From Salinibaculum litoreum (lineage in GTDB: Archaea; Halobacteriota; Halobacteria; Halobacteriales; Haloarculaceae): 64,000 nucleotides of DNA. The stretch covers positions 1,302,001-1,366,000 of the forward strand of contig CP046866.1 of NCBI GenBank assembly GCA_009789175.1, given 5' to 3'. Of this stretch, positions 33,819-37,610 are shown piece by piece (positions within the stretch are counted from its first letter, which is position 1; every line of letters begins with the position of its first letter). Below the pieces are notes generated by a model, which saw only the letters and a list, made by a program, of their open reading frames with translations, was not told where the DNA came from and did not search any database. The translations under genes and the position numbers were made by a program.

Positions 33819-34742
33819 CTAGTACGAGCGGAGTTTCTCGATGCGCTTCTCGACCGGCGGGTGGGTCGCGAAGATGGTCTGGAGGATGCCGCGGTCACCC
33901 TCGAAGATACAGAGTGCAGCAACCTCGTCCGGTGTGCCCTCGTTTTGCTGTTGGTTCCGGCCACGGCCTCGACCGCGGCCACGTCCGCCGCCACGGCCAC
34001 GGCTCGCAGCCTGCTGGCTGGCCTGTGCCTGCTTTGCACCCGAGCTGATTTTCTCCAGTGCGCGGGCCATCGCTTCGGGATTGTTGGTGTACTGGGCGGC
34101 GTCGCTGTCGGCGACGTACTCGCGGTACCGCGAGATGGCCAGCACGAAAATCGAGACGAGCATCTGCGCGATGCTCCCGAGTATCATCCCGACGAAGAGG
34201 TCCGCGATGCCGTTGTCGCTGGTCAGGATGACCGTCCACTGGACCACGATGCCGACGATAGACGCGATGGACTGGCCCAGCAACATCACGACTACGTCGC
34301 GATTGCTGATATGAGCCAGTTCGTGGGCGAGGACGCCGTTGAGTTCTGGTTCGTCCAGCAGGTCGATAATCTCCTTCGAGACGACCACGACGCCTGCACC
34401 TTTCCGACCGACGGCGAAGGCGTTCGGGACGCCCATGCTCGCGACCATCAGCCGGGGTTTCTCGATACCCATATCGCGGCTGAGGTGCTCGACTTCCTGG
34501 TGAATCTGCCTGTACCGCCCCTCCTGGGGCATGTCCTCGGCGCCGACGCTCCGCAGAGCCGCCCACTTCCCGAATTTGTACTGGAAGCCGACGAACGCAA
34601 GCGTCAGCACCAGCAATATAGCGAGGACGTTCGTCGTGGCACCGAACGTGAACATCACAAACCCGGCTACCGCCGCGTAGAAGGCAAACAGGATGCTTCC
34701 CGCCAGAATCATCCTGAGTTTGAGACCGATGTGTCGTACCAT
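33819..34742 (-). CDS. htpX: HtpX-type M48 membrane zinc protease with RG-rich insertion
   Basis: From the ATG at 34742 the product has 307 residues. Two N-terminal spans (MILAGSILFAFYAAVAGF and NVLAILLVLTLAFVGF) precede the catalytic HELAH at residues 140-144 in NGVLAHELAHISNRDV. Another membrane pair follows, with the third ligand E207 in SRYREYVADSDA. HtpX degrades damaged membrane proteins. Between residues 246 and 262 there is an unusual stretch of alternating Arg-Gly, followed by NQQQNEG. The TATA-like TTTTATA (34765-34771, reverse strand) lies 23-29 bases upstream and supports this start, so the open frame beyond it is noise. Confidence 0.92.
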   Translation of the reverse strand: MVRHIGLKLRMILAGSILFAFYAAVAGFVMFTFGATTNVLAILLVLTLAFVGFQYKFGKWAALRSVGAEDMPQEGRYRQIHQEVEHLSRDMGIEKPRLMVASMGVPNAFAVGRKGAGVVVVSKEIIDLLDEPELNGVLAHELAHISNRDVVVMLLGQSIASIVGIVVQWTVILTSDNGIADLFVGMILGSIAQMLVSIFVLAISRYREYVADSDAAQYTNNPEAMARALEKISSGAKQAQASQQAASRGRGGGRGRGRGRGRNQQQNEGTPDEVAALCIFEGDRGILQTIFATHPPVEKRIEKLRSY

Positions 34743-34771: not shown

Positions 34772-34838
34772 AAGCGTGCGTTATAGAGAGTGTCATGGGA
34801 CATGGTACCCCACCACAGGCTGAGGAGTAGACACAATG

Positions 34839-34844
34839 TATAAG
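34839..34844 (+). promoter_or_regulatory. Forward TATA box upstream of the dapA leader ORF
   Basis: GTATAA in context AATGTATAAGTCC lies about 25-30 bases upstream of the ATG at 34869. Initiation is thus predicted at or next to that ATG, about 200 bases before dapA. Confidence 0.5.
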
Positions 34845-34868
34845 TCCCTCGCTGCTGGTGGTTGTGAT

Positions 34869-34946
34869 ATGTTGGTCGTCACGTCCGTGCACGGGTGCAA
34901 CCCGGACCAGCGTGGCGGCCGCTCGTTCTCGAAACGCAAACTGTAG
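34869..34946 (+). CDS. Possible 25-residue leader peptide before dapA
   Basis: An ATG placed where transcription should begin opens MLVVTSVHGCNPDQRGGRSF and ends SKRKL before a TAG at 34944-34946. It is followed by a stem GAGAC/GTCTC (34950-34954 with 34977-34981). The inverted pair CGGGT/ACCCG (34892-34896 with 34900-34904) lies inside the ORF. It holds two lysine codons near its end (SKRKL), which is notable before a lysine-pathway operon but is a small number. Function as an attenuator is a guess. Confidence 0.35.
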   Translation: MLVVTSVHGCNPDQRGGRSFSKRKL

Positions 34947-35068
34947 TGAGAGACTCGTGGCAGGCGTGGCAACCCTGTCTCGGGTCATGTTCGAACCACT
35001 CAGAGAGCGGTACGCAAACCGAACCACACAAGCAACACAACTGCGAGACAACACACAACGACATTCCC

Positions 35069-35965
35069 ATGACCGACATCGACACTTTCGGCGGCGTGTA
35101 CCCCGCGATGTGCACGCCCTTTAACGACGACGGCAGCATCGACTTCCAGACACTCCGCGACGACGCCAAGCGCCTCGAAGCAGCAGGCGTCGACGGCCTC
35201 GTCCCGATGGGTTCGACCGGCGAGTCCGCGACGGTCAGCCACGACGAACACATCGAGGTCATCGACGCCGTCATCGATGCCGTCGACGTGCCCGTCATCG
35301 CCGGGAGTGGCTCGAACAACACCGACGAGGCACTCTCCCTGTCACGCCGAGCCGCCGCGGCCGGGGCTGACGCGCTCCTTCTCATCTCGCCGTATTACAA
35401 CAAGCCCGAGCAGCGCGGGTTCGTCGAACACTACGAAACCATCGCAGACGAAGTGGACGTTCCACAGATTGTCTACAACGTTCCCTCCCGGACCGGGCAA
35501 AACATCGAGCCGGACACCGTTGCGACACTCGCGGAACACGAGAACATCCAGGGCTACAAGGCCGCAGGCGGTGACCTGAATCAGGTCGGCGAAATCGTCG
35601 AGAAGACCCGCGACGAGGAGTTCGACGTGCTCTCGGGCAACGACGGTGAGAACCTACCCATCATCTCGTTGGGTGGCACCGGCTGTATCAGCGTCGCAGC
35701 CAACGTCGAACCTGAGCGCGTGAGTGAGCTGGTCTGGGCCGCCCTCGATGGCGACTACGACCGCGCGCGGGACCTCCACCACGACCTCGGCCCGCTGTTC
35801 CGCGCACTGTTCTGGGAGACTAACCCAATCCCGGTCAAGGCCGCCACGGAGATTCGGGGCTGGAGCAACGGCAACCTCCGTGCGCCGCTGACGGAACTCT
35901 CCCCCGAGAACTACGACCGACTCGCGGACCTGCTCGCGGAATACGACACGATGGAGGCACAATGA
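35069..35965 (+). CDS. dapA: 4-hydroxy-tetrahydrodipicolinate synthase
   Basis: From the ATG at 35069 the product is 298 residues, a standard DapA. FGGVYPAMCTPFNDDGSIDF opens the TIM barrel, GLVPMGSTGESATVSHDEH includes the substrate T-T/S motif, LLLISPYYNKPEQRGFVEHY and IVYNVPSRTGQNIEPD carry the Tyr residues, and GYKAAGGDLNQV contains the Schiff-base lysine. It condenses aspartate semialdehyde and pyruvate in lysine synthesis. Its stop overlaps the dapB start by four bases, giving translational coupling. The open frame to the left (from 34895) includes leader sequence and is not DapA. Confidence 0.95.
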   Translation: MTDIDTFGGVYPAMCTPFNDDGSIDFQTLRDDAKRLEAAGVDGLVPMGSTGESATVSHDEHIEVIDAVIDAVDVPVIAGSGSNNTDEALSLSRRAAAAGADALLLISPYYNKPEQRGFVEHYETIADEVDVPQIVYNVPSRTGQNIEPDTVATLAEHENIQGYKAAGGDLNQVGEIVEKTRDEEFDVLSGNDGENLPIISLGGTGCISVAANVEPERVSELVWAALDGDYDRARDLHHDLGPLFRALFWETNPIPVKAATEIRGWSNGNLRAPLTELSPENYDRLADLLAEYDTMEAQ

Positions 35966-36717
35966 CGACGCTGGGGGTCAACGGCGTCGCAGGACGGATG
36001 GGTCAGACGGTCGTCGAGACGGCAGACGAGCGCGGCGACGTGGACGTGGCCTTCGGTATCGATGTCGACGGCGACGCCGACGTGGACGTGCCGGTGTACA
36101 GTCCTGCCGAAACGGGGGATGCACTGTCCGAGTACGACCCGGACGCCGTCATCGACTTCACAGTTCCCGAGTCCACGGTAGCGCTTGCCGAGGCGTGTGC
36201 TGGTGCAGGTGTCCCACTGGTCGTCGGGACCACGGGCGTCGACGAGGACCAGCTATCGGTTCTGCAAGAGGCAAGCGAGGCGGTCCCGCTGCTGAAGGCA
36301 ACTAACTTCTCGCGGGGGATTCAGGGCCTGCTTCGCGCGCTCGGTCCCGCGCTCGAAGCACTGGAGGGCTACGACGTGGAAGTCATGGAGACCCACCACA
36401 ACCAGAAACGGGACGCCCCCAGCGGGACGGCGAAGACGATTCTCGAAGAGATTAGCGAGCATCGGGACTTCGAGACGGTCCCGGGCCGCGAGGGCATCCA
36501 GCCCCGCGAGGAAGACGAGGTCGGCATGCTCGTCCGCCGGGCCGGAGACATCCGCGGGGAACACGAAGTCACCCTCGCCGACAACGACGAGGTGCTGACG
36601 ATTAGCCACCGTGCAGAGGACCGTGGGGTCTTTGCCGCCGGCGCAATCGACGCTGCCGTCTGGCTGGCGCGTCAGGACCCGGGGTGGTACGACTTCGGCG
36701 ACGTGGTCGACGCATAG
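35962..36717 (+). CDS. dapB: 4-hydroxy-tetrahydrodipicolinate reductase
   Basis: The 251-residue protein begins MTTLGVNGVAGRMGQTVVET, a GxxGxxG dinucleotide-binding loop, and includes PLVVGTTGVDED, PLLKATNFSRGIQGLLRAL, VEVMETHHNQKRDAPSGTAK (the DapB signature with catalytic His and Lys) and IRGEHEVTLADNDEVLTISH. It reduces the DapA product with NAD(P)H. It overlaps dapA by four bases and is followed 62 bases later by dapD. Confidence 0.95.
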   Translation: MTTLGVNGVAGRMGQTVVETADERGDVDVAFGIDVDGDADVDVPVYSPAETGDALSEYDPDAVIDFTVPESTVALAEACAGAGVPLVVGTTGVDEDQLSVLQEASEAVPLLKATNFSRGIQGLLRALGPALEALEGYDVEVMETHHNQKRDAPSGTAKTILEEISEHRDFETVPGREGIQPREEDEVGMLVRRAGDIRGEHEVTLADNDEVLTISHRAEDRGVFAAGAIDAAVWLARQDPGWYDFGDVVDA

Positions 36718-36779
36718 CTGAGTGTCTTTTCCCGTCCCGAGACGCAATCGACAAGTTCGGAGGGTGTGATTGGCGCGAT

Positions 36780-37610
36780 ATGAGTCTTCAGTCCGATATC
36801 GAAACCCTGTGGTCTCGCTACGACGACGGCCTCGCAGCCGACGAGGTGAATGCCGAGGAGCTGACGACGCTGGCGGAGTTTCTCGAAGCACTCGAAGCCG
36901 GCGAGATTCGGGCCGCGGAGAAATCCGGCGGCGAGTGGGAAGTCAACGAGTGGGTCAAACAGGGCGTTCTTCTGAACTTCGGGCTCCGGCAGATATCCAG
37001 CTACGAGTACGGGGACGTGACCTACAACGACGTGCTCCCGGTGCTTGATACAGACGACCTCGGCGACCGTGGCTCCCGGAATACGCCGACAGGCACCACT
37101 ATCCGCCGCGGTGCCTACCTCGGCGAGGATGTCATCATGATGAGTCCCTCCTTCGTCAACATCGGCGCACACGTCGGTGACGGCACGCTGGTCGACTCCT
37201 GTGACACCGTCGGCTCGTGTGCACAGATTGGCGACAACGTCAAACTCGGTGCAAACACGCTCATCGGAGGCGTCCTCGAACCCGTCGAGGACGCACCGGT
37301 CATCGTCGAAGACGGTGCCTCGCTGGGGGCCGGCTGTCGAGTCACGAGCGGCTTTGTCGTCGGTGAAAACAGCATCGTCGGCGAGAACACGCTTCTGACG
37401 CCGCGTATCCCCGTCTACGACCTCGTCGAGGAGGAAATCATCTACGGCCGTCTGCCACCGGAACGTCGTGCCTTCTCGCGGTACGTCGAGTCCTCAATCG
37501 CCGACCACGACCTCTTCGATGGTGGCGCGTACAAACCCGCCGTCGTCGCGACCGATGTCGAACAGGAGACGCTCGAAGGAACCGAACGCGAAGACGCACT
37601 GCGGGAATAG
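36780..37610 (+). CDS. dapD: Tetrahydrodipicolinate N-succinyltransferase
   Basis: The 276-residue protein matches DapD length. An N-terminal helical region is followed by GSRNTPTGTTIRRGAYLGED, a left-handed beta-helix of hexapeptide repeats (VIMMSPSFVNIGAHVGDGTL, VDSCDTVGSCAQIGDNVKLG, TLIGGVLEPVEDAPVIVEDG, SLGAGCRVTSGFVVGENSIV) and a C-terminal tail. Its presence indicates the acylated branch of lysine/meso-diaminopimelate synthesis. lysA and dapF genes are not adjacent in this window. It is the last gene of the dapABD run; a GAF-domain gene converges. Confidence 0.93.
   Translation: MSLQSDIETLWSRYDDGLAADEVNAEELTTLAEFLEALEAGEIRAAEKSGGEWEVNEWVKQGVLLNFGLRQISSYEYGDVTYNDVLPVLDTDDLGDRGSRNTPTGTTIRRGAYLGEDVIMMSPSFVNIGAHVGDGTLVDSCDTVGSCAQIGDNVKLGANTLIGGVLEPVEDAPVIVEDGASLGAGCRVTSGFVVGENSIVGENTLLTPRIPVYDLVEEEIIYGRLPPERRAFSRYVESSIADHDLFDGGAYKPAVVATDVEQETLEGTEREDALRE

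Follow-up and report, generated by a model that had tools for sequence, protein, structure and literature searches.

A leader peptide with conserved lysine codons precedes the haloarchaeal dapA operon: a putative ribosome-sensed attenuator

The window analysed here is a stretch of 64,000 nucleotides from Salinibaculum litoreum (assembly GCA_009789175.1, contig CP046866.1, positions 1,302,001 to 1,366,000), and all coordinates below are window positions. The leader under study is placed between a divergent gene for an HtpX-type protease (minus strand, start near 34742; its NCBIfam HtpX matches are below the cut-offs) and the operon dapA-dapB-dapD. The features of the locus are the following.

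34832..34845, plus strand: predicted BRE/TATA core promoter of the leader transcript, CACAATGTATAAGT, at conserved positions relative to the ORF ATG (window letters checked)
34869..34946, plus strand: leaderless 25-codon leader-peptide ORF, coordinates with the stop included, MLVVTSVHGCNPDQRGGRSFSKRKL; counterpart in 80 of 81 leaders
34873..34884, plus strand: 5' arm of hairpin HP1, a 12-bp helix, in codons 2-6 of the leader ORF
34910..34921, plus strand: 3' arm of the 12-bp HP1 helix, inside the leader ORF
34932..34934, plus strand: Lys codon AAA, codon 22 of the leader ORF, read from the sequence
34938..34940, plus strand: Lys codon AAA, codon 24 of the leader ORF, 14 nt before the HP2 foot
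34952..34986, plus strand: hairpin HP2 with a GURGC-type conserved loop and a fixed G.U wobble pair, from comparison and covariation
34987..35016, plus strand: region 3' of HP2 that pairs with the ORF tail (pairing P0), selected class-wide and weak in the window
35020..35068, plus strand: A/C-rich, T-poor stretch before dapA without a Shine-Dalgarno (SD) motif, from leader comparison
35069..35965, plus strand: dapA, 4-hydroxy-tetrahydrodipicolinate synthase (NCBIfam TIGR00674, 332 bits, cut-off 206)
35962..36717, plus strand: dapB (TIGR00036, 202.9 bits, above cut-off), overlapping the dapA stop, as in an operon
36684..37610, plus strand: dapD (NF008808, 276.8 bits, above cut-off), given as the listed ORF, whose true start is perhaps further in

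The leader ORF runs from the ATG at 34869 to the TAG at 34944-34946 and would encode 25 amino acids (MLVVTSVHGCNPDQRGGRSFSKRKL) with the C-terminal end S-K-R-K-L. HP2 (GACTCG..CGGGTC) begins 5 nt past this stop, and the distance from the stop to dapA is 122 nt. An in-frame ATG at 34836 would extend the ORF to 36 codons, but it overlaps the TATA box, and for this reason the 25-codon form is preferred. The original prediction, made from the sequence alone, had claimed that a TATA box predicts a transcript starting at the ATG of a 25-residue ORF ending S-K-R-K-L, and that a stem lies right after the ORF stop, about 120 bases before dapA. Both claims held, the coordinates and description being right, and the transcription start is still a predicted one. 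Single-sequence folding would not flag this leader as special, since the window's whole leader is no more stable than its shuffles (z -0.19); it is comparison with relatives that does so.

For this comparison we used a set of 81 leaders, comprising the window and 80 named haloarchaeal loci found via DapA. The 80 loci are the best-scoring of 186 relatives and are biased to near relatives; the breadth of the observation rests instead on class-wide model searches. HP2 is present in all 81 leaders, and an ORF ending at the HP2 foot is present in 80 of them (the exception is L033), where an ORF was required to start with ATG and to have at least 12 codons, and Lys was not used in choosing it. The stops of these 80 ORFs fall between 16 nt inside HP2 and 9 nt before the scripted hairpin start. 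The leader of a congener of the window's genome matches at 79% over 160 of 328 bases.

A covariance model of the ORF tail together with HP2 (model R1) matches 368 of the 391 genomes of the class (E<=0.1), including 30 of 30 chosen genomes from other families, all of which were already positive in the class-wide search. Within a phylum sample (E<=0.001), matches were obtained in 17 of 19 in-class genomes and in none of the 101 others. The gene directly downstream is dapA in every one of the 60 loci fetched from the R1 searches, with DapA proteins 61-73% identical to that of the window. A corresponding ORF is found in 35/35 loci of other families, all with Lys, although the frame there was picked by Lys count and this result is biased accordingly. 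The original prediction had proposed leader conservation in species sharing the operon as a check, and the leader is conserved: the ORF and hairpin recur before dapA across haloarchaea, and the observation is real and stronger than a single sequence could show.

There is no R1 match in 23 of the 391 genomes, of which 20 were followed up. Five of these 20 (G180, G084, G322, G086 and G286) carry the element beside dapA under laxer filters, and in one (G309) dapA is truncated at the contig start. Another five, from one genus of family f4 (L172, L173, L174, L178 and L182), have an ORF with a K-containing tail and a diverged hairpin, as judged by eye; their leaders are mostly GTG-started, with GKRSKR-type tails and a different hairpin. 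Three genomes (G161, G228 and G291) contain only DapA paralogues that are 36-37% identical, and the element is absent from them too. Loss of the lysine pathway has been described for Halobacterium salinarum (PMC8305020), and the state of these three genomes would fit a joint loss of element and pathway. The remaining six (G072, G136, G158, G164, G321 and G374) are without the element by these criteria, and in G164, G321 and G374 DapA is only 54-56% identical to that of the window.

The promoter of the leader transcript is held at a constant distance from the leader ATG. In the window, CACAATGTATAAGT places T-A-A at -28 to -26. Across 36 thinned leaders the conserved positions relative to the leader ATG are C-37, A-34, A-33, T-28, A-27, A-26, G-25 and T-24, with A-34 and A-27 in 36/36, C-37 and T-28 in 97%, and G-25 and T-24 at frequencies of 0.86 and 0.89, respectively. 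Because the spacing of the BRE/TATA box to the leader ATG is right for it, a leaderless start is predicted. No comparable box precedes the dapA ATG in the same 36 leaders.

Several features of the ORF itself indicate that it is very likely coding and related to lysine, translation being inferred. Reading frame 0 is open in all 80 ORFs, with frames +1 and +2 open in 36 and 35, respectively. The share of Lys among the last ten codons is 0.209, compared with 0.011 in 80 dapA genes, which is a 19.6-fold enrichment; the next most enriched tail residues are R (3.6-fold) and F (3.2-fold), and no other residue exceeds 3.6-fold. Every one of the 80 ORFs has at least one Lys, and two have no Arg among the last ten codons. 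In shifted frames the Lys share drops to 0.02-0.03 (36 thinned leaders). The order of residues in the tail varies (KRKR, KKRV, KPKPTDDE, SAKKCAQ, RGKRSKR), and only Lys, and mostly Arg, is conserved. Codon choice is reversed relative to the downstream gene, with an AAA:AAG ratio of 149:28 in the leader ORFs versus 23:239 in dapA. Frameshifting at AAAAAAC was rejected by inspection, as most leaders read AAACGCAAACG and the structure is too far downstream.

These observations bear on an alternative in which the leader encodes a nascent-chain arrest peptide, so that its K and R residues, once inside the exit tunnel, or else a bound metabolite would stall the ribosome regardless of the charging of Lys-tRNA. 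The K/R-rich tail and the enrichment of R favor this reading. Against it, the peptide sequence is not fixed across leaders, and the excess of AAA over AAG is a codon-level signal, although an unstructured A-rich linker could also favor AAA. We consider an arrest peptide unlikely.

The Lys codons are also held in place relative to HP2. In 80/80 ORFs, 12-19 nt separate the last Lys codon, counted from its first base, from the HP2 foot, with a mode of 15 nt (40/80), whereas the stop codon can end anywhere between 18 nt inside HP2 and 6 nt before its foot. In the 35 loci of other families, where the frame was picked by Lys count, the spacing is 14-24 nt in every case. Five ORFs without the usual stop (L057, L059, L064, L067 and L068) terminate inside HP2, at or near its loop, and still keep the Lys-to-HP2 spacing. 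Since this spacing is tight, the stop wanders and the five ORFs without the usual stop keep the spacing, it is the Lys codon rather than the stop that is position-held. Counted from the first base of its A site, the RNA shielded downstream by a ribosome is about 12-13 nt long, and a ribosome waiting at the last Lys codon would therefore abut HP2. We also considered whether a UAG located in the HP2 loop serves as a second stop; it is in frame in the five leaders without the usual stop, but the frame relation is not kept (gaps of 3, 4 and 6), and this candidate was rejected.

HP2 is supported as an RNA structure by covariation, with 113 double-change cells against 35.8 (sd 8.6) in shuffled alignments and 0/500 shuffles as high. 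Its cells are paired in 95.7% of cases, and all slid versions score far lower. In 35 loci outside the model there are 41 double-change cells versus 17.1 (sd 3.2; 0/500), with the caveat that the alignment was fitted to the model. One G.U pair and the neighboring C-G are fixed in 80/80 and 35/35 leaders, and another pair, U.G, is invariant in the 80 and retained in 25 of the 35. Judged from conservation alone, the fixed wobble and the conserved GURGC-type loop suggest recognition by some factor.

Two alternatives would assign HP2 a role of its own. The first is that HP2 is the binding site of an RNA-binding regulator or a small-molecule riboswitch, with the ORF being secondary. In its favor, the GURGC loop and the fixed G.U pair (80/80 and 35/35) are conserved beyond what a bare stem needs. 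However, no Rfam family matches at E<=10 over 34780-35100, and neither the lysine riboswitch nor the T-box leader reaches the gathering score over the window, so HP2 is not the known lysine riboswitch, and this reading leaves both the Lys-to-HP2 spacing and the Lys-codon bias unexplained. We regard it as improbable; an RNA-sensing (riboswitch) alternative raised by the original prediction is likewise not supported, as no Rfam family matches at E<=10. The second alternative treats HP2 as a palindromic DNA operator bound by a transcription factor, and has in its favor that HP2 is an imperfect inverted repeat. It appears very unlikely, because HP2 lies downstream of the promoter and because G.U pairs that never vary (T facing G in the DNA) and compensatory changes suit a folded RNA rather than a pair of equivalent half-sites in DNA.

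HP1, inside the ORF, has a mean best-helix score of 23.7, whereas permuted codons give 14.8 (sd 0.29) and leaders with exchanged halves 18.0 (sd 0.40). Its arms are diverse in sequence (CGTCGCTCAC/GTGAGCGACG, GACGACGCC/GGCGTCGTC, CACACCA/TGGTGTG). Since the HP1 arms were chosen as the best pair, the corresponding row of the pairing test is circular, and the evidence for HP1 is the permutation and half-swap scores. Pairing between the ORF tail and the 30 nt after HP2 (P0) is stronger within a leader than across leaders (z -4.89, 0/2000; 36 thinned leaders), although the window's own P0 is only average (-12.3 kcal/mol, with mismatched pairs averaging -11.98). There is no support for a trp-type 2:3 antiterminator, as the HP1 3' arm pairs with the HP2 5' arm no better than mismatched arms do (z +0.68).

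HP2 is not a bacterial-type intrinsic terminator, since the U-tract that should follow it is absent: a T run of at least 4 follows it in 3 of 36 leaders, with 1.5 expected, and the window's leader contains no terminator-like sites. The lack of a U-tract means that either factor-dependent termination or translational control is required. The latter constitutes a rival in which the Lys-sensing peptide is the same and the HP2/P0 state decides access to the dapA ATG, reached either by small subunits leaving the leader stop or by subunits loading on the A/C-rich region. Besides the missing U-tract, it is favored by the rarity of SD-like motifs within 20 nt of dapA (GGAG 1/80, AGGA 1/80) and by the A/C-rich, T-poor composition of the 45 nt preceding the gene. 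In addition, the stretch from HP2 to dapA (34987-35068 in the window) is poor in ATG triplets, with 7 occurrences versus 19.8 in shuffles (sd 3.4; 0/500) over 36 thinned leaders. CAT, its reverse complement, is depleted in the same stretch (25 vs 48.0), so the depletion need not reflect scanning and is not used as proof of it. Also against this rival, none of the leader segments tested shows specific pairing with the last 40 nt ahead of dapA (all |z| < 1). A translational output remains a contender that we rate as less likely than not.

Taken together, what is shown comprises the anatomy of the leader, its conservation, the specificity for Lys, the fixed Lys-HP2 spacing, the covariation of HP1 and HP2, and the selection for pairing between the tail and the region past HP2. 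The best explanation, which we consider likely, is a ribosome-sensed lysine attenuator of the dap operon; there is no wet-laboratory evidence for it, and the stalling, the direction of the switch and the output are inferred. In this view, the transcript would start on the leader ATG or immediately beside it, and its very 5' end would be where a 70S ribosome initiates the 25-codon peptide. HP1 would probably delay RNA polymerase or limit reloading, keeping translation and transcription in step. When Lys-tRNA is charged, the ribosome would pass the AAA codons, reach the stop and leave, and the ORF tail could then pair with the region past HP2 (P0), lengthening the HP2 stem and keeping dapA low. 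When Lys-tRNA is scarce, the ribosome would halt between HP1 and HP2, its A site on a Lys codon and its leading edge at the HP2 foot, covering the tail and blocking P0, so that the dapA transcript would be completed or translated. The putative output is either early transcription termination, for which aCPSF1/FttA is a candidate archaeal factor, or control of dapA translation. As HP2 itself would stay folded under a Lys-stalled ribosome, switching has to depend on P0, on HP1 or on the stalled ribosome being recognized.

The element probably works like a leader-peptide attenuator, but its full membership in this group is unsettled, as its output and lysine response are inferred and the terminator feature is unmet. 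It has a short 5' ORF, the translation of which is inferred, with end-product codons that are fixed relative to a downstream hairpin. For mutually exclusive structures the result depends on the pairing considered, with z +0.68 for the trp-like 2:3 pairing and z -4.9 for the helix between the ORF tail and the downstream region. An intrinsic terminator with a U-tract, which defines the transcriptional subtype, is lacking. The suggestion in the original prediction of attenuation-like control of lysine synthesis is thus supported by the Lys enrichment in the tail, the anchoring of Lys to the hairpin, the covarying hairpins and the class-wide linkage to dapA, with the response to lysine itself inferred.

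A differential RNA sequencing study of Haloferax volcanii from 2016 reported uORFs of 15-31 aa in 150-250 nt leaders, including those of pheS (26 aa) and a tryptophan-tRNA ligase (23 aa) (PMC4983044). As this study reports uORFs before these two genes, we examined pheS in 29 genomes; three were dropped for lack of a recognized start, leaving 26 loci. In 18 of them (L284-L289, L291-L297, L303-L306 and L308), the stretch before pheS holds an ATG-started ORF of 24-29 aa whose tail is rich in Phe (e.g. MASEPHSRCPARKQQDGPGFGFFFAA). The ORFs were selected by having at least two Phe in the last 9 codons, and the Phe fraction is biased accordingly; in 17 of the 18 loci, the Phe ORF is the sole 18-35 aa ATG ORF in the stretch. 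These leaders share the promoter spacing of the dapA leader, with A-34 and T-28 in 18/18, and contain an intra-ORF hairpin, scoring 24.3 compared with 15.7 (sd 0.65; maximum 17.7) for permuted codons. The association of another amino acid with the matching synthetase gene provides strong support for codon sensing, which is inferred from sequence. Rough scans of trpD (21 loci), hisG (22), trpC (19) and ilvB (20) revealed no consistent Trp-, His- or branched-chain-rich leader, only scattered single ORFs; the gene start is misplaced in some of these loci, and the negative result is weak. A bolder reading is that haloarchaea have leader-peptide attenuators of a class of their own, with Lys at dapA, Phe at pheS and perhaps further members, which combine leaderless ORFs, an intra-ORF hairpin and an attenuator that lacks a U-tract and is read by a 70S ribosome as it stalls. 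For this joint claim the balance of evidence tips only modestly in favor.

The Haloferax volcanii study does not name dapA in its 16 uORF cases, a list that covered only 97 transcripts with 150-250 nt leaders, and its uORF section describes no pattern of Lys or Phe codons, hairpin or attenuation (PMC4983044). According to a 2021 paper, archaea are not known to use transcription attenuation or antitermination (PMC8448881), and we did not find leader-peptide attenuation in haloarchaea in the open-access literature searched (titles and abstract starts, with subscription papers and preprints outside the scope). If the proposed mechanism is true, archaea would gain their first case of ribosome-mediated attenuation, one whose output is factor-dependent or translational and differs from that in bacteria. 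It would further mean that leaderless 70S initiation can act as a sensor and that attenuation is possible without a bacterial terminator. A class-wide Lys leader with a Phe counterpart at pheS would show that archaea couple the progress of a leader ribosome to downstream expression. As haloarchaea can be manipulated genetically and lysine auxotrophs of them are available (PMC10433800), the attenuator idea is testable at once.

Among known systems, the lysine riboswitch (L-box) resembles the dapA leader in its position upstream of lysine genes, and the leader would likewise respond to lysine status. That riboswitch is a five-helix junction; the dapA leader differs in consisting of two simple hairpins and an ORF, without an Rfam match. 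In bacteria, the pheST leader has a Phe-rich peptide upstream of pheS. The haloarchaeal pheS version differs from it in being leaderless and in having its own HP1, and it supports the generality of the arrangement, not the dapA case directly. The bacterial trp, his, thr, leu and ilv attenuators share with the dapA leader a short 5' ORF with codons for the product, an intra-ORF hairpin, a second hairpin and a biosynthetic operon. Unlike them, the dapA leader is archaeal, its ORF is leaderless, it has no U-tract, an antiterminator pairing is unsupported, and its Lys codons come after HP1 rather than inside region 1. In pyrBI-type attenuation, the position of the ribosome itself blocks the attenuator stem, and the direct competition between ribosome and stem proposed here, without an antiterminator, is similar. 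The output at dapA is inferred, and the signal would be charged Lys-tRNA, in contrast to the UTP level sensed in pyrBI-type systems.
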